The translations under genes were made by a program, and so were the position numbers. Positions 1,129 through 13,006 of a stretch of 64,000 nt of DNA are shown here, one piece after another (position 1 is the stretch's first letter; each line of letters begins with the position of its first letter). The notes beneath the pieces are model-generated. The model was not told where the DNA came from and ran no database searches. It saw nothing but the letters and a program-made list of their open reading frames with translations. Source of the DNA: Erysipelotrichaceae bacterium (GTDB taxonomy: Bacteria; Bacillota_I; Bacilli_A; Erysipelotrichales; Erysipelotrichaceae); the NCBI GenBank assembly GCA_015058955.1, contig SVBJ01000001.1:1-64000 (forward strand). The letters are read 5' to 3'.

Positions 1129-1959
1129 ATGGAAAACTTTAAGGAAACATTTTCAAAAGTAGGAATTCAGTTGCTGGCAATTATTGCAATATGTCTTGTA
1201 GCTAAGATAATTGTTTCCTGTGTTTCTCATTTTACCGGAAAGGTAATAAAGAAAAACGAGGAAGGTCCGAATCTGAAGAGAATAACAACTTCGATGACGA
1301 TTCTGCGCAGTGCTTCAAGATATCTGGTATGGTTTCTGGCTGTTCTGGCAATAATATCAATAATCGGAGGGTTTAATGCCAATAATGCTCTGCTGACAGC
1401 CGGGGTTGGAACAGTGATCATCACCATAGGTGCCCAGAGTCTGTTTTCTGATATTATCAGCGGTCTGTTTCTGGTCTTTGACCGTCAGTATGAAGTTGGT
1501 GATTATGTCAAGATAGGTGAATACGAAGGGCGTGTCAGCGCTATTTCCATCAGGGCAACTTATCTGGAAATAGGCGGGCGCAAGATCATAATCCCTAACG
1601 GTCAGGTAAAAAATGTGATCAACTATCGTGATTATGTCGGCTGTACGGTAGTCATACCGGTCAGCTATAATGCCGATCAGAAAACGGTCAGGGCAATACT
1701 GGATGAAGTATGCCGGGAATATGGAAAGAACAACACGGCAAAAGTACTTGATTCACCTTCAGTGCTGGGAATTGATGATTTCGGTTCCAGCAGCATTGAC
1801 TACAAGATATATGCCAAATGCTATCCAATGCAGCATTTCTCGGTTCCGCGTGATCTGCGCCGGATCATAAAAGACCGTTTTGACCGGGAAGGAATTGAAA
1901 TACCTTATTCACAGGTTGATGTACATATAACAAACGGGAAAGGTTATCCGGAGGGATAA
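1129..1959 (+). CDS. MscS-family mechanosensitive ion channel
   Basis: This 276-residue membrane protein has three predicted transmembrane helices in its first ~120 residues: residues 8-32, about 60-85, and a Gly/Ala-rich pore-lining helix around 88-115 (ALLTAGVGTVIITIGAQSLF). The soluble MscS beta domain follows (FDRQYEVGDYVKIGEYEGRV), then the alpha/beta vestibule. The length is close to the 286 residues of E. coli MscS. Such channels open under membrane tension and release solutes during hypo-osmotic shock. A GTGAGGA ribosome-binding site precedes the ATG and a TATAAT box lies at 1101-1106, so it is probably transcribed on its own. Confidence 0.92.
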   Translation: MENFKETFSKVGIQLLAIIAICLVAKIIVSCVSHFTGKVIKKNEEGPNLKRITTSMTILRSASRYLVWFLAVLAIISIIGGFNANNALLTAGVGTVIITIGAQSLFSDIISGLFLVFDRQYEVGDYVKIGEYEGRVSAISIRATYLEIGGRKIIIPNGQVKNVINYRDYVGCTVVIPVSYNADQKTVRAILDEVCREYGKNNTAKVLDSPSVLGIDDFGSSSIDYKIYAKCYPMQHFSVPRDLRRIIKDRFDREGIEIPYSQVDVHITNGKGYPEG

Positions 1960-2037
1960 TCTTTTTATATATTTATATATGTCATTAATATAATTAAAGC
2001 TCCATTCAGGAGCTGATTCAGTATATTCCATCATAAG

Positions 2038-2128
2038 TGGCGGAGGATGTGAGATTCGAACTCACGCAAGCTGTTAAACTTCTAACGGTTTTCGAAACCG
2101 GCCCCTTAGACCGCTTGGGTAATCCTCC
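2038..2128 (-). tRNA. tRNA-Ser (anticodon CGA)
   Basis: On the minus strand the sequence folds as a class II tRNA: acceptor stem GGAGGAT/ATCCTCC, discriminator G and an encoded CCA at 2038-2040, a long variable arm typical of serine tRNA, and a T-arm GTGAG-TTCGAAT-CTCAC. The anticodon loop reads TTCGAAA, giving anticodon CGA, which decodes UCG. The first anticodon-stem pair appears to be a C-U mismatch. Confidence 0.95.
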
Positions 2129-2321
2129 GCTTTGAGCTTTTTCAGGCTCACAGATATTCTATCACATTTAAAGAATATGACTATAAAAAAATATATATAA
2201 TAGGATATCGCCATTATTTCTGAAAAAGGGGCAATGATTCGTTGTTTCATAAAAATGAAATTTTTTACATGAAAAAGTTAGTGAAAATCTATTTGAAAAC
2301 ACTGAAAATATGAAAAATCGG

Positions 2322-2350
2322 TTGACAAATTCATGTATTTATCGTTTAAT
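2322..2350 (+). promoter_or_regulatory. Promoter of the opp operon
   Basis: A consensus -35 box TTGACA (2322-2327) is separated by exactly 17 bases from TTTAAT (2345-2350), which matches the -10 consensus at five of six positions. It lies about 50 bases upstream of the oppA start codon. Confidence 0.75.
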
Positions 2351-2401
2351 TCTTTTTGTATACAATTTTATGTTGTTTTTATTATGAAAGGGGAAAACAA
2401 G

Positions 2402-4357
2402 ATGAAAAAATTATTAGTTGTATTACTTACTGCATTAATGATCTTTTCGGTAGTTGGTTGTACAAAGCCTCAGGAAGATGATCACACAGTTGATACTTAT
2501 TCCATGATCGACAGCTTTGATATCACTACATTAGACTATGTTTATAACAACAAGTCTTCTAACGGTGACTACACTTCAAACTTCATCGAAGGATTATTAA
2601 CTCAGGATTCACATGGTACCTTAATCGCCGGTATGGCTGAAAAGTGGGAACCAAATGCTGACATGACTGAATGGACATTCACAATCCGTGACAATGCTAC
2701 ATGGTCAACAGCTGAAGGCGAAGTTTATGGCAAGGTTACTGCTGAAGACTTCGTAACTGGCTTAAAGCATGCAGTTGCTACACAGTCTGAAACTTTATCA
2801 CTGGTAGAAGACCTGATCGTAAACTTAAGAGCTTACAAGGAAGGAACTGCTACTTGGGATCAGGTTGGTATTAAGGCTGATGGCAACAAGTTAACTTATA
2901 CTCTGACTCAGAGCTGCGGTTATTTCGATGGTATGACAACATACTCAATCTTATGGCCTATCAACGCTGAATTCTTAGAGTCAATGGGCGATAACTTCGG
3001 TACAGTTGATGCAAAGAGCATCCTTTACAATGGCTGCTACATCCTGTCTTCATTAGTTGCTGCTCAGGAAGTTAAGTTTGATGCAAACCCTAACTACTAT
3101 GACAAGGACAATGTCTTCGTAAAGCACGTTATCGTTACTTACACTGACGGTTCAGACCCTGCACAGAACTTCAACATGTTCGTTAACAACGAAGTTACAG
3201 CTACAGGTATCAATGGTGCATTACCAGATGTAGTAGCTAAGGCTGATGAACTCTACAAGGACAACCAGTACAAGAGCATGACCACTGCTACTTCTTACTG
3301 GGGTGCATTCAACTTCGACAGACAGTCATATGCACTGTACAACGATCCATCTGTTGTAACAACAAACAAGACTGATGCTGAAAAGGCTGATACAAAGGCT
3401 GCTATCCTGAATAAGAACTTCCGTTTAGCTGTCTACTCAGCTTATTCAACAAAGGCTACTCAGGCTATCACAAAGGGTGATGAAAGAGCATTGGACGCTG
3501 CCAGAAATACATTAGTTCCTTACACATTCGCTGCAACAAGCGATGGCACAAGCTATGGCGCTCTGGTAACTAAGTATGTTGAAGAATTAGAACCTGAATT
3601 CGCAGGCATCAACCTGGTTGATGGTCAGGATGCTTGGTACAATCCTGAAAGAGCTCAGAAGTTCGCTGCTAAGGCAAAGGAAGAATTAGGCTCTTCAGTA
3701 TCTGCATGGCCAGTTAAGTTAGACTACCCAGTCTATGCTGCTTCTGAAAACCAGAAGAACATCGCAATGGCTATGAAGAAGTCAATCGAAGATGCTATCG
3801 GTGACTATGTAGAAATTAACTTAGTATTATTAGAAGGTAACTCTTCAGTTTACTATTCAGCATTCTACAGTGTTCCAACAGGAAAAGATAACTCAATCGA
3901 CTTCTCATTCGGTGCTGGTTGGGGCCCTGACTATGGCGACCCATTAACATACATCAACTGTTTCGATGCACAGAATGGTGATATGCTGAACTACTCAGGC
4001 TTAGACTTAGCTGATGAAGCTGAATCTGAGAGTGGCAAGGCTGCTAAGCAGGCTATCGGTCTGTATGACATCAAGACATTAATCGATGCTGCTGCAACAT
4101 TAGGTGGCGACGAAAGAATCGATGCATTCGCAAAGATCGAAGCTATGTTATTAACTCAGGGTATCTTAAGACCTTATTCAACTTCAGGTGCTAACCTGGT
4201 TGTCAGCAAGGTTGTTCCATTCACAGCTGGTTACGGCTTATATGGTCAGGCTGCTTACAACGCAGTTCCTTACTTCAAGTACATGAAGGTTCAGGACACT
4301 CCTGTAACAACAGCTGAATACGAAGCTGCAAAGGCTAAGTGGTTAGCTGGCGAATAA
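2402..4357 (+). CDS. oppA: Oligopeptide ABC transporter substrate-binding lipoprotein OppA
   Basis: This 651-residue solute-binding protein belongs to the SBP family 5. The frame is open from 2333, but the ATG at 2402 is chosen because it has a GGGG-rich ribosome-binding site and begins a lipoprotein signal peptide (MKKLLVVLLTALMIFSVVGC), whose cysteine at residue 20 would be lipidated. The mature protein captures extracellular peptides and delivers them to the OppBC pore. The coding sequence uses TTA for leucine and GCT/GCA for alanine much more than its neighbours, a bias suggesting high expression. It is followed by a hairpin at 4381-4415 and then oppBCDF, so it should be made in excess over the membrane components. 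Confidence 0.93.
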   Translation: MKKLLVVLLTALMIFSVVGCTKPQEDDHTVDTYSMIDSFDITTLDYVYNNKSSNGDYTSNFIEGLLTQDSHGTLIAGMAEKWEPNADMTEWTFTIRDNATWSTAEGEVYGKVTAEDFVTGLKHAVATQSETLSLVEDLIVNLRAYKEGTATWDQVGIKADGNKLTYTLTQSCGYFDGMTTYSILWPINAEFLESMGDNFGTVDAKSILYNGCYILSSLVAAQEVKFDANPNYYDKDNVFVKHVIVTYTDGSDPAQNFNMFVNNEVTATGINGALPDVVAKADELYKDNQYKSMTTATSYWGAFNFDRQSYALYNDPSVVTTNKTDAEKADTKAAILNKNFRLAVYSAYSTKATQAITKGDERALDAARNTLVPYTFAATSDGTSYGALVTKYVEELEPEFAGINLVDGQDAWYNPERAQKFAAKAKEELGSSVSAWPVKLDYPVYAASENQKNIAMAMKKSIEDAIGDYVEINLVLLEGNSSVYYSAFYSVPTGKDNSIDFSFGAGWGPDYGDPLTYINCFDAQNGDMLNYSGLDLADEAESESGKAAKQAIGLYDIKTLIDAAATLGGDERIDAFAKIEAMLLTQGILRPYSTSGANLVVSKVVPFTAGYGLYGQAAYNAVPYFKYMKVQDTPVTTAEYEAAKAKWLAGE

Positions 4358-4380
4358 TAGCTTAATAAAGTTATAACTAA

Positions 4381-4415
4381 ATAGGGTCAGGTCAAAATCC
4401 CTGACCCTATTTTAC
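4381..4415 (+). terminator. Intra-operon terminator/attenuator between oppA and oppB
   Basis: An 11-bp perfect stem ATAGGGTCAGG / CCTGACCCTAT (4381-4391 with 4400-4410) is followed by TTTACT. Its position just after the binding-protein gene suggests partial termination or mRNA stabilisation that raises the OppA:OppBCDF ratio. Confidence 0.75.
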
Positions 4416-4435
4416 TCAAAAAAGGAGGATGGATA

Positions 4436-5935
4436 ATGAAAAAAGGATATATTTGGAAAAGATTGCTAAGATCATTCCTTTCAGTCTTTATCATCATGAT
4501 TATCGTTTTTATCATGCTATATTCACTGGTTCCACGAGACAACATATTTTTTGAAGACGCTACATATAAGAAGCTTGGCGGAAAACCTGATGACAAGAGG
4601 GAATACGTCATGCGTACCTGGGAAAAGCTTGGTTATCTTGATTATGAAACACTGAACGATTTCTGTGCTGCCAAATATGAACAGGGCAGTGCTGAAATGG
4701 AAGCAGCCATGGAAAACGGTTCAAAGGAATACTATGAATTCATAGATACTTTTGAGAAAAAAGGATATACCGTTGAATATCTGCAGCTTTCAAAAAAGCC
4801 TTATGCATTTAAGGATGTACCTTTGGTTCAGAGACTGGCTAAATGGGTATCACATCTGCTGGTTATTGATACACCTTGGTCTGTACAGGATCCTAATAAT
4901 CCTGATCTCAAGAGGTACATTAAATTAGGTACTACACCGACTGGCGGACTTGCTCTGATCGGCAGCGGTACCACCCATAAATATCTTATTTATACTGATA
5001 CCAGATTCCCGTTCCTTCACCAGAACATTATTACTCTTAACCTCGGAACTTCATATCCTAAATTTGAGGGTATGCAGGTACTGGATGTTATCTTCCAGTC
5101 TCAGGGTACAGAGGTAAAGAGAGAAGTTACTTTTGAAACGGGCGTGACTCAGGAATCAGCAATTAACTTTGGCTCTCTTACATATAAGCCAACACTTGAC
5201 AGACTTGATCAGGCCAAGTTCGTTGACCATTATGCTAACTATACAACAAACAAAGAACAGTCATCCATGATCGGTACATCCTTTATCATGGGTATCTTCG
5301 CCTTGATTCTGGCATATGGCATTGGCTTGCCGGCAGGATTGGCCATGGCCAAGAACAAGGATGGCATCGTTGACAAGATCGGTATGTTCTATATCATCTT
5401 CATCATCGCCGTTCCATCTCTTGCCTACATTTATCTGTTCAGATATCTGGGAACAAGACTGTTCAATCTTCCGTCCGCCTTCCCAATCAAGGGTGCCGGA
5501 GATGTCAGATCCTGGATCCTTCCGATTATTTCACTGTCACTGCCGTCAATCAGTTCATTGATGCTGTGGACAAGACGTTACGTTGTTGACCAGACAAACT
5601 CTGACTATGTCAAGTTTGCCAAGGCCAAGGGACTTAATCAGAAGGAGATCTTCTGGAATCACATCTTCAAGAACGCCATTATCCCAATCGTTCACGGTAT
5701 TCCTTCATCATTGGCAGGCACCATTATCGGCGCCATCATTACTGAAGCCATTTACTCTGTAGGTGGTATGGGTAAGATGCTGCCTGATTCAATCAAACAG
5801 TATAACAATACGATGGTTGTTGCCCTGACATTCATGTTTGCGACAATTTCCGTACTGTCAGTATTAATGGGTGACATCGTGCTGACCTGGGTTGACCCTA
5901 GAATCAGCTTAAGCGAAAAGGAGGGCAGATCATAA
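4436..5935 (+). CDS. oppB: Oligopeptide ABC transporter permease OppB, with long extracytoplasmic insertion
   Basis: This is a 499-residue inner-membrane permease. One N-terminal transmembrane helix (about residues 12-32) is followed by a ~240-residue extracytoplasmic region. Five further helices carry the conserved cytoplasmic EAA loop (DYVKFAKAKGLNQKEIFWNH) that couples to the ATPases. Typical OppB proteins are about 300-330 residues, so the extra ~180 residues sit between helices 1 and 2. This long OppB form is known in some Firmicutes. AAAGGAGG precedes the ATG, and the stop overlaps the oppC start by one base. It forms the translocation pore with OppC. Confidence 0.93.
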   Translation: MKKGYIWKRLLRSFLSVFIIMIIVFIMLYSLVPRDNIFFEDATYKKLGGKPDDKREYVMRTWEKLGYLDYETLNDFCAAKYEQGSAEMEAAMENGSKEYYEFIDTFEKKGYTVEYLQLSKKPYAFKDVPLVQRLAKWVSHLLVIDTPWSVQDPNNPDLKRYIKLGTTPTGGLALIGSGTTHKYLIYTDTRFPFLHQNIITLNLGTSYPKFEGMQVLDVIFQSQGTEVKREVTFETGVTQESAINFGSLTYKPTLDRLDQAKFVDHYANYTTNKEQSSMIGTSFIMGIFALILAYGIGLPAGLAMAKNKDGIVDKIGMFYIIFIIAVPSLAYIYLFRYLGTRLFNLPSAFPIKGAGDVRSWILPIISLSLPSISSLMLWTRRYVVDQTNSDYVKFAKAKGLNQKEIFWNHIFKNAIIPIVHGIPSSLAGTIIGAIITEAIYSVGGMGKMLPDSIKQYNNTMVVALTFMFATISVLSVLMGDIVLTWVDPRISLSEKEGRS

Positions 5936-9306: not shown

Positions 9307-9494
9307 ATTTTTATTATAACTGAAGGTTCTGTAATGTTAAAGAGATGGCTGTTTTTCAACACACAAAACAGCAGAATTGTCAACCCGAAAACAGGGAATA
9401 AATCATACAAAATTTGAGTTATTATAGTAGATATTTCACATTGGTTGATGTAGAATATTAAAGGATAGTTGGATTTCCAACTAAAGGGGATTTA

Positions 9495-10634
9495 ATGAGT
9501 AATCAAAATAATTTTCTTATAGACATTTCTGTCCTGTATCGCTACACACAGAAGTATTTTGACCGTCACCTGGCCCAGTACGGAATAGGTTCCGGCCAGA
9601 TGATTTTCCTGCTCCTCATCAATGAGCATGAGGGCATAACGATGCAGCAGTTGACCGTCATGGCCGACTTTGACAAGGGAACCACGACAAAGAATCTGCA
9701 GAGACTTGTTGAGCAGGATTACATTGTGATAGGGCCAGATGAAAACGATAAGAGAGTTAGAAGACTGTATACCACGCGCAAGACCAGAGACATCATAAAC
9801 AACCTCTATGAGATCAGAAATGAATGCTGTAACCGGCTCATGAAGGGTCTCAATAACGAGGAAGTTGAGGAGCAGATTCACAGACTAACCGCCAACTCCC
9901 ATGACATTGTACCGGATGAAGAGTACAGTCAGATGAGGATCGGCGGTCTGCAGAAGCTGACACTGCTGGATTACCCTAATCATGTCTCATGCACGGTGTT
10001 CACGGCAGGATGTAACATGAAATGTCCGTTCTGTCACAACCGTGATCTGGTCTTCATACCGGAAAACTTCGAATTCTACAATCCGGAAAGCATCTTTGAA
10101 TACCTGCGCAAGCGCCAGGGAACTCTGGATGCCGTAGCCATTACCGGCGGTGAACCGCTGCTTCAGCCTGGTTTAAGAGACTTCATAATGGAAGTCAGAA
10201 AACTGGGATTCAAGGTAAAGCTGGATACCAATGGTTATTATCCGGATAAGCTGAAGAAACTTGTTGACGAAGGTCTGATCGATTATGTTGCCATGGATGT
10301 CAAGGCACCGCTGCCTAAGTATCCGGTTACGGTTGGTCTGCCGGAATCAGGTTTCCACACTGAGCAGATCCAGAAAAGCATTAAGTATCTTCTCAGCGGA
10401 ACAGTTGATTATGAATTCAGGACCACGGTTGTAAGGGAATTCCACACTAAGGAAGATCTGGTCGCAATCGCCAAAATGATAAAGGGTTGCAAACATTACT
10501 ATCTGCAGCAGTTTGTGGATAGCGGCAGATGTATTGAGCAGGGATTCAGTGCATATAATCGTGAGGAAATGTATGAACTGAAGGAAGAAGTAGCCAAATA
10601 CATCCCGGAAGTTGAGTTAAGAGGAATAAGCTAG
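9495..10634 (+). CDS. MarR-type DNA-binding domain fused to anaerobic ribonucleotide reductase activase (NrdG-like radical SAM)
   Basis: This 379-residue fusion protein starts with a MarR-type winged-helix domain (residues ~1-140) with a dimerisation helix, a recognition helix near QQLTVMADFDKGTTTKNLQRL and a wing (DENDKRVRRLY). From about residue 150 it is a radical-SAM activase with the cluster motif CNMKCPFC (Cys173, Cys177, Cys180) and the SAM-binding GGEP motif. The C-terminal half should generate the glycyl radical on NrdD, encoded 14 bases downstream. The N-terminal half may bind DNA, possibly the nrd promoter, linking activase level or redox state to transcription. GGGG precedes the ATG. 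The two halves are fused in one uninterrupted frame. Domain assignment is secure; the regulatory role is inference. Confidence 0.85.
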   Translation: MSNQNNFLIDISVLYRYTQKYFDRHLAQYGIGSGQMIFLLLINEHEGITMQQLTVMADFDKGTTTKNLQRLVEQDYIVIGPDENDKRVRRLYTTRKTRDIINNLYEIRNECCNRLMKGLNNEEVEEQIHRLTANSHDIVPDEEYSQMRIGGLQKLTLLDYPNHVSCTVFTAGCNMKCPFCHNRDLVFIPENFEFYNPESIFEYLRKRQGTLDAVAITGGEPLLQPGLRDFIMEVRKLGFKVKLDTNGYYPDKLKKLVDEGLIDYVAMDVKAPLPKYPVTVGLPESGFHTEQIQKSIKYLLSGTVDYEFRTTVVREFHTKEDLVAIAKMIKGCKHYYLQQFVDSGRCIEQGFSAYNREEMYELKEEVAKYIPEVELRGIS

Positions 10635-10648
10635 GAAAGGGAAACACT

Positions 10649-13006
10649 ATGTACAGAGTTGTAAAAAGAGATGGCAGCGTCGTTGAGTTTGACATCAAGA
10701 AAATAGCCAATGCCATCACACAGGCTTTTGAAGCCACTAACAAGAATTACCATCCTTCAACAATCGACATGCTGGCACTTAAGGTTACCAGCGACTTTGA
10801 ACCGAAGATCAAGGATGAACTGATCGGTGTTGAAGACATTCAGGACAGTGCTGAATCAGTACTGATTCAGGCTGGTTACGATGATGTAGCCAAGAGCTAT
10901 ATCTTATACCGTCGTCAGAGAGAAAAAGTCAGAAATGTCAGCGAGACCATGCTTGACTACAAGCGGCTGGTTGACAGCTATGTTAAGGCAATTGACTGGA
11001 GAGTTAAGGAGAACTCAACCGTTACCTATTCAGTAGGCGGCTTGATCCTGTCTAACTCCGGTGCCATTACCGCTAACTACTGGTTAAGTGAAGTATATGA
11101 TGATGAGATCGCCAACGCTCACAGAAACGGCGACATTCACATTCATGACCTGAGCATGCTTACAGGCTACTGTGCCGGCTGGTCTTTAAAACAGCTGATT
11201 CAGGAAGGTCTGGGCGGTGTTCCGGGCAAGATCACTTCATCACCTGCCAAGCACCTGTCAACTCTGTGCAACCAGATGGTTAACTTCCTGGGTATCATGC
11301 AGAATGAATGGGCTGGCGCTCAGGCATTCTCCAGCTTTGACACATACCTGGCTCCTTTCGTAAAGGTCGACAATCTGGATTACCATGAAGTAAAGCAGTG
11401 CATCCAGAGCTTCGTCTATGGTGTTAACACTCCTTCAAGATGGGGCACTCAGGCACCGTTTACCAACGTTACCCTTGACTGGACCGTACCTGATGACCTG
11501 GCTGAACTGCCATGTCTGATCGGCGGCAAGGAAATGGACTTCAAGTACAAGGACTGCAAGAAGGAAATGGACATGGTCAACAAGGCATTCATCGAAATCA
11601 TGATCGAAGGCGATGCCAACGGCCGTGGCTTCCAGTATCCTATTCCTACCTATTCAATCACCAAGGACTTTGACTGGTCTGAAACTGAAAACAACAAGCT
11701 TCTGTTTGAAATGACTGCTAAATATGGTACTCCATATTTCTCAAACTATGTCAACAGTGACATGGAGCCAAGCGATGTCAGAAGCATGTGCTGCCGCTTA
11801 AGACTTGACTTACGTGAATTAAGAAAGAAATCCGGCGGATTCTTCGGTTCAGGTGAATCAACAGGTTCAGTAGGTGTTGTAACCATCAACATGCCTAGAC
11901 TGGCATATCTGGCCAAGGATGAAAAGGACTTCTATAACAGATTAGCCAGAATCATGGACTTAAGCGCACGCTCACTGAAGATCAAGAGAGATGTCATCAC
12001 CAAGTTACTGGAAAACGGTCTGTATCCTTATACCAAGAGATATCTGGGCACCTTCAATAACCACTTCTCAACCATCGGCCTGGTCGGCATGAACGAAGCC
12101 GGTCTGAACGCCAACTGGTTAAGAAAGGACATGACTCATGAGGAAACTCAGCAGTTCACCATCAATGTACTGAACTTCATGCGTGAAAGACTGTCTGACT
12201 ATCAGGAAAAGTACGGCGACCTGTATAACCTGGAAGCTACACCGGCTGAAAGCACTTCCTACAGACTGGCTAAGATCGATAAGAAGAAATATCCTGATAT
12301 CATTACCGCCAATGAAATGGGTGATCCATACTATACCAACAGTTCACATCTGCCGGTAGGATACACTGATGATATCTTCTCAGCTCTGGACATCCAGGAT
12401 CAGCTGCAGACACTGTACACTTCCGGTACTGTCTTCCATGCCTTCTTAGGTGAAAGACTGCCTGACTGGAAGGCTGCAGCTTCACTGGTAAGAAAGATTG
12501 CCGAGAACTACCGTCTGCCATACTACACAATGTCACCGACATATTCAGTATGTGCTGAACACGGTTACCTCAGCGGTGAGCAGGATACTTGCCCATACTG
12601 CGGACGTCCGACAGAAGTCTACAGCCGTATTACCGGTTACTACAGGCCAGTACAGAACTGGAATAAGGGCAAGGCTCAGGAATTCCTCGATCGTAAGACA
12701 TATGCCTTTACCGGTTTAGGAAACTTCAAGGAAAACGAAAAGCCGGTTAAGGAAGTAAAGAAGGAAGCTGAAAAGGCTGAACAGCTCTTACTGTTCACCA
12801 CCAAGACCTGCCCTAACTGCAAGATCGTCAAGGACATGCTCGGAAAGAAGGGCATCGAATATACGATCGTTGATGCAGAGGAAAACGTTGATGAGTGCAA
12901 TAAGTTTGAAGTAAATCAGGCTCCTACTCTGATCGCCATCACTCAGGACGGCTATGAGAAGTATGCCAATGCTTCCAACATCATCAAGTACATCAACAGA
13001 AATTAA
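10649..13006 (+). CDS. nrdD: Anaerobic (class III) ribonucleoside-triphosphate reductase with fused C-terminal glutaredoxin/thioredoxin-like domain
   Basis: This 785-residue enzyme reduces ribonucleoside triphosphates to deoxy forms under anoxia. An ATP-cone (about 3-90) provides allosteric control. The catalytic barrel has the MCCRL motif (Cys381/382) that holds the thiyl-forming cysteine. A zinc site (CAEHG...CPYC) precedes the glycyl-radical motif RITGYYRP with Gly663. NrdD proteins normally end shortly after this glycine. Here ~75 further residues form a thioredoxin-fold domain with a CPNC active site (Cys721, Cys724) and a cis-Pro-like APT motif. The fused domain probably supplies reducing equivalents, as proposed for thioredoxin/NrdH-dependent NrdD subclasses, in place of formate. 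It is cotranscribed with the activase fusion and followed by a strong hairpin. Confidence 0.93.
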   Translation: MYRVVKRDGSVVEFDIKKIANAITQAFEATNKNYHPSTIDMLALKVTSDFEPKIKDELIGVEDIQDSAESVLIQAGYDDVAKSYILYRRQREKVRNVSETMLDYKRLVDSYVKAIDWRVKENSTVTYSVGGLILSNSGAITANYWLSEVYDDEIANAHRNGDIHIHDLSMLTGYCAGWSLKQLIQEGLGGVPGKITSSPAKHLSTLCNQMVNFLGIMQNEWAGAQAFSSFDTYLAPFVKVDNLDYHEVKQCIQSFVYGVNTPSRWGTQAPFTNVTLDWTVPDDLAELPCLIGGKEMDFKYKDCKKEMDMVNKAFIEIMIEGDANGRGFQYPIPTYSITKDFDWSETENNKLLFEMTAKYGTPYFSNYVNSDMEPSDVRSMCCRLRLDLRELRKKSGGFFGSGESTGSVGVVTINMPRLAYLAKDEKDFYNRLARIMDLSARSLKIKRDVITKLLENGLYPYTKRYLGTFNNHFSTIGLVGMNEAGLNANWLRKDMTHEETQQFTINVLNFMRERLSDYQEKYGDLYNLEATPAESTSYRLAKIDKKKYPDIITANEMGDPYYTNSSHLPVGYTDDIFSALDIQDQLQTLYTSGTVFHAFLGERLPDWKAAASLVRKIAENYRLPYYTMSPTYSVCAEHGYLSGEQDTCPYCGRPTEVYSRITGYYRPVQNWNKGKAQEFLDRKTYAFTGLGNFKENEKPVKEVKKEAEKAEQLLLFTTKTCPNCKIVKDMLGKKGIEYTIVDAEENVDECNKFEVNQAPTLIAITQDGYEKYANASNIIKYINRN

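Follow-up and report, generated by a model that had tools for sequence, protein, structure and literature searches.

BirA and PutA are bifunctional enzyme-repressors, in which a DNA-binding domain carried on the enzyme represses the enzyme's own pathway; BirA modifies a protein client. To our knowledge no enzyme-repressor of this kind is a radical-SAM enzyme or a glycyl-radical activase. NrdR represses ribonucleotide reductase (RNR) operons via promoter palindromes, and according to a 2014 review nearly all bacteria encode it for the control of RNR (PMC4009431). The locus described here lies in a window of 64,000 nucleotides from an Erysipelotrichaceae bacterium (positions 1 to 64,000 of contig SVBJ01000001.1) and holds a gene in which a MarR winged-helix domain is fused to an NrdG-type RNR activase. 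Both domain families and enzyme-repressor fusions as a kind are already known. No published description of a MarR-NrdG fusion was found in the open-access literature searched.

The catalytic half of the fusion resembles the NrdG2 activases of class III RNR (TIGR02495) in scoring over the family cut-off, in its CxxxCxxC motif and in having nrdD as its neighbour, whereas the unfused copies in the Clostridia and the other groups sampled have neither a MarR domain at the N-terminus nor the operator that goes with it. With MarR autorepressors such as MepR, OhrR, SlyA and MarR it shares a complete fold with a conserved recognition helix and wing, and a palindrome of about 18 bp over its own promoter, which the fusion is predicted to bind. 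It differs from them in that they control efflux or peroxide genes, whereas here the target would be RNR and the domain is fused to a catalytic radical-SAM enzyme. Like NrdR, an ATP-cone/zinc ribbon repressor, it is predicted to repress an RNR operon through a palindrome, but the two proteins are unrelated: the NrdR box is acaCwAtATaTwGtg, and the window protein matches MarR, not NrdR. Catalytic and DNA-binding domains share one chain, as in BirA and PutA, and the client of an NrdG-type activase is a protein, as it is for BirA. The best reading of the sequence evidence is a bifunctional activase and autorepressor that would control nrdGD, to which we give a probability of about 80%. The features concerned are these:

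9451 to 9456, plus strand: predicted -10 hexamer TAGAAT, with a weak -35 upstream (consensus match only)
9466 to 9483, no strand assigned: putative operator, a perfect palindrome TAGTTGGA-tt-TCCAACTA (8/8 inverted repeat; conservation linked to the fusion)
9495 to 9908, plus strand: MarR winged-helix domain, complete including the dimerisation helices (residues 1-138; Pfam, AlphaFold, structural alignment)
9675 to 9713, plus strand: recognition helix, motif DKGT.TK (residues 61-73; conservation, AlphaFold)
9723 to 9773, plus strand: wing with the invariant R87 (residues 77-93; conservation, AlphaFold)
9909 to 9938, plus strand: linker, weakly conserved and with reduced model confidence (residues 139-148; conservation, AlphaFold)
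9939 to 10631, plus strand: NrdG2-type radical-SAM activase domain (residues 149-379; TIGR02495 over cut-off, structural alignment)
10011 to 10034, plus strand: CxxxCxxC cluster-binding motif C173, C177, C180 (intact in 113/115 fusions)
10649 to 13006, plus strand: nrdD, encoding an anaerobic ribonucleotide reductase that has an ATP cone and ends in a glutaredoxin-like domain; directly downstream of the fusion

An earlier note, made from the letters alone, had described an NrdG-like activase with the motif CNMKCPFC and a full MarR winged helix at its N-terminus in one frame, and the reading frame, Pfam, NCBIfam and AlphaFold all bear this out. Positions 9495-10634 of the plus strand encode 379 amino acids in a single uninterrupted frame with an ATG start, and the motif is found as claimed at residues 173-180. 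Pfam matches MarR_2 over residues 30-87 (E 1.2e-10, above the cut-off), MarR (E 7e-7) and Radical_SAM over residues 168-328 (E 1.6e-22), while the NCBIfam model NrdG2 (TIGR02495) covers residues 149-340 with 224.4 bits against a cut-off of 131.15. The AlphaFold model has a mean pLDDT of 92.9. Its MarR half consists of helices at 2-29, 33-44, 50-57 and 61-73, a wing at 77-93 and helices at 95-116 and 121-138, with both dimerisation helices (the first and the last) present, and a radical-SAM barrel lies C-terminal to this fold and the linker. In structural alignments residues 1-145 match MarR structures (Z 17-18; 18.3 for 3bpx) and residues 145-375 align with pyruvate formate-lyase activase (3cb8, Z 24.4). 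The fusion is neither chance nor an assembly error, since there are 115 distinct full-length homologues with identities down to 31%. An internal start at M147, from which free NrdG would be translated, was ruled out as a general feature of the fusions, as M147 is not conserved among them.

Other fusions of this type, whose phylogenetic spread the earlier note had proposed to follow, proved to be widespread within one bacterial class. All 115 sequences belong to the Erysipelotrichales or to one further family within its class. In the same family as the window, 94 of 195 genomes gave a match with an E-value no higher than 1e-20, mostly full length. At the level of the order, fusions are spread across the whole of the Erysipelotrichaceae and reach part of one more family, and the class sample has them also in three genomes of a third; the remaining matches of the class sample begin near residue 145 and are unfused. 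No further group with fusions appeared in the phylum sample, and no full-length fusion was found on plasmids or phages. Among named genomes the fusion is carried by Erysipelotrichaceae and Coprobacillaceae, including Holdemania, Dielma, Holdemanella, Faecalitalea, Sharpea and Eggerthia, and by metagenome-assembled genomes labelled Acholeplasmatales, and the matches in Lachnospiraceae and Oscillospiraceae in that scan are unfused. The fusion may have had a single origin: a quick activase-domain tree is compatible with this, though it gives no proof.

MarR relatives that stand alone also occur in the family, in front of MATE-like transporter genes. The nearest of them, at L090 1434-3345 and L091 1497-3352, are each followed by such a transporter, and the MarR gene of L091 has two GTTG...CAAC-type sites upstream that resemble the nrd operator. 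These MATE-linked relatives and the L091 sites suggest where the MarR domain of the fusion came from.

Conservation within the MarR domain was computed on 64 fusion sequences of less than 90% identity. The recognition helix is the best conserved stretch of the domain, with D60, K61, G62 and K66 invariant, as is R87 in the wing, and T63 conserved in 98%; residues 96-145 average 41%, the linker and C-terminal MarR helices being variable. The earlier note had reckoned with orthologues in which the recognition helix is not conserved, and what we found are contact residues that are invariant or nearly so. The MarR half thus appears to be a domain under selection for DNA binding, of which this pattern is the signature. 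There is no conserved cysteine within the domain in these 64 sequences (C111 and C112 vary), and we rejected thiol sensing of the OhrR type for it on this ground. Residue 64 of the recognition helix appears to match base 7 of the operator (p about 2e-12, unadjusted), but the match derives from no more than about five tree changes and is inseparable from ancestry, and we set the covariation aside.

The palindrome upstream of the fusion has the form 8+2+8. It begins 15 bases after the first base of the predicted -10, just downstream of that element, and ends eleven bases upstream of the start codon, against the ribosome-binding site. At related loci it drifts with distance, from TAGTTGGAAATCCAACTA to TAGTTGAAAGTTCAACTA. 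We searched the 120 bases upstream of each gene with the pattern TAGTTGRANNTYCAACTA, allowing up to three mismatches. As the pattern came from the fusion loci themselves, the fair comparison is with unfused promoters and shuffles: it is present in 92/115 fusion promoters, 1/46 unfused nrdG promoters and 13/2300 dinucleotide-shuffled promoters (Fisher p 1.6e-21 with relatedness ignored). The conserved palindrome that the earlier note had told its readers to look for is therefore there. It is also found in 37 of 51 clusters when one member is taken from each cluster at 60% identity. Placed against the best predicted -10, the 92 operators lie over the -35 or spacer in 29 cases, over the start-site region in 54 and elsewhere in 9, and both main positions suit a repressor. 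A recognisable operator is missing from 23 of the 115 fusion promoters, mostly in divergent lineages, and upstream of these fusions we found terminator-like hairpins or unrelated repeats and no second shared motif. A search of the window's genome with up to three mismatches returned one exact site, at 9466-9483, and fewer sites than a reversed control pattern, so a regulon extending beyond nrd is unsupported.

Only 14 bases separate the stop codon of the fusion from the start of nrdD, and the two genes are presumed to be co-transcribed. nrdD is the next gene in 107 of 113 fusion loci, these being the loci among the 115 with enough downstream sequence for the count. In the window's genome, which is 95% complete, a single NRDD gene and no large subunit of a class I/II RNR were found, so the fusion probably serves the genome's only RNR. 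The glutaredoxin-like domain at the C-terminus of the NrdD encoded at 10649-13006 is in frame (PF00462, E 8e-6) and suggests that its reductant is a redoxin rather than formate. At one locus (L206, genome G200) an RRXRR/HNH protein resembling IscB is encoded on the minus strand at 891-2207, between the fusion gene and nrdD; this gene, assigned by eye, is probably a mobile element inserted into the operon.

NrdR (TIGR00244) scored over its cut-off in 0/244 genomes of the order and 0/296 of the class, and not in the window's own genome, compared with 9/14 control genomes. As this absence is class-wide and the fusion is narrower, the fusion is at best a possible replacement of NrdR and would fill the NrdR vacancy in at most part of the class.

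The sole unfused nrdG with an operator (L084 1585-2343, genome G051) nests among the fusions near the window's (SH-aLRT 93), which points to loss of its MarR domain while the operator stayed. G051 also holds a distant fused copy elsewhere in its genome and, as a draft 81% complete with 4% contamination, could be a mixture of genomes. In those genomes of the genus g31 that carry an unfused nrdG-nrdD pair besides a fusion, the unfused copy has no operator and sits close behind another gene. The cluster cysteines and the operator have gone from the fusions of G037 and G080, a truncated NrdD-like gene comes next, and an intact nrdDG lies elsewhere in each genome. At L222 (G037) 1786-4472 and the equivalent position in L223 (G080), the cysteine-less fusion is followed by a truncated NrdD-like protein of 501 amino acids, a possible pseudoenzyme pair. 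The loss of the cysteines shows that the fusion arrangement can decay, and in these two genomes decay of catalysis appears to have gone with decay of regulation.

The autorepressor reading follows from the fusion itself, its intact catalytic motif, the constrained DNA-contact residues, an operator that is tied to the fusion and placed for repression, the lack of any NrdR over the cut-off, and the finding of no RNR other than nrdD. We infer that the fusion binds the palindrome and represses from it, which very probably places its operon under its own control. At the level of sequence, the fusion, its contact residues and the fusion-linked palindrome give good support to the earlier note's idea that activation of RNR is linked to regulation of the nrd promoter. 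In the mechanism we propose, the radical-SAM half would install the glycyl radical on NrdD, while the MarR half would dimerise, bind the palindrome over the nrdGD promoter and block RNA polymerase. A BirA-like switch would have the activase choose between its protein client, NrdD, and DNA: free activase (with no unactivated NrdD left, or in a particular cluster or SAM state) would repress, and NrdD-engaged activase would not. This switch is the step that we favour by analogy with BirA, and it is the least certain one of the proposal.

It seems very improbable that the MarR half is a non-regulatory dimerisation or scaffold module and that the palindrome belongs to another regulator. The fusions that lack the operator would fit such an arrangement, but the DNA-contact residues are the best conserved part of the domain, and the palindrome tracks the fusion and is nearly never found at unfused nrdG promoters. 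A constitutive autorepressor is a real possibility, if one falling somewhat short of even odds: feedback would set the level of activase and NrdD, or a small ligand would occupy the MarR pocket, and the radical-SAM half would be tethered cargo. The linkage of operator to fusion and its placement in the promoter require nothing more, and stand-alone MarR relatives in front of transporter genes are the usual layout of ligand-responsive regulators. However, the two halves have stayed in one gene across wide divergence, and their physical connection therefore seems to be of importance.

Alternatively, the state of the [4Fe-4S] cluster in the radical-SAM half may itself set the affinity for DNA, making the protein a redox or oxygen sensor. 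Direct reporting of cluster state to the DNA-binding domain is plausible; the cluster cysteines are intact in all but two of the 115 fusions, and the MarR domain offers no conserved cysteine, which leaves the cluster as the only candidate for redox sensing through conserved residues. Activase clusters serve catalysis, though, so that their conservation is no proof of sensing, and contact or coupling between the domains is not evident, given the variable linker and a pTM of only 0.66 for the monomer model. We regard a redox sensor as rather unlikely. NrdD occupancy, SAM or a ligand of the MarR pocket fit as the signal equally well as cluster state.

For the activase and autorepressor that we prefer, our tentative suggestion is that the activase acts as the transcription sensor of its own pathway, its cluster, SAM or NrdD-engaged state directly deciding how far the sole RNR operon is repressed, in a class that appears to have lost NrdR. 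The sampled genomes of this large gut-dwelling class have no NrdR, and many of its members fuse a repressor to the RNR activase beside a conserved operator. Since the protein is soluble and its putative site is a defined 18 bp, both the cluster-sensing and the client-sensing ideas would lend themselves to tests in vitro. If confirmed, the arrangement would couple the activation of a radical enzyme directly to transcription.
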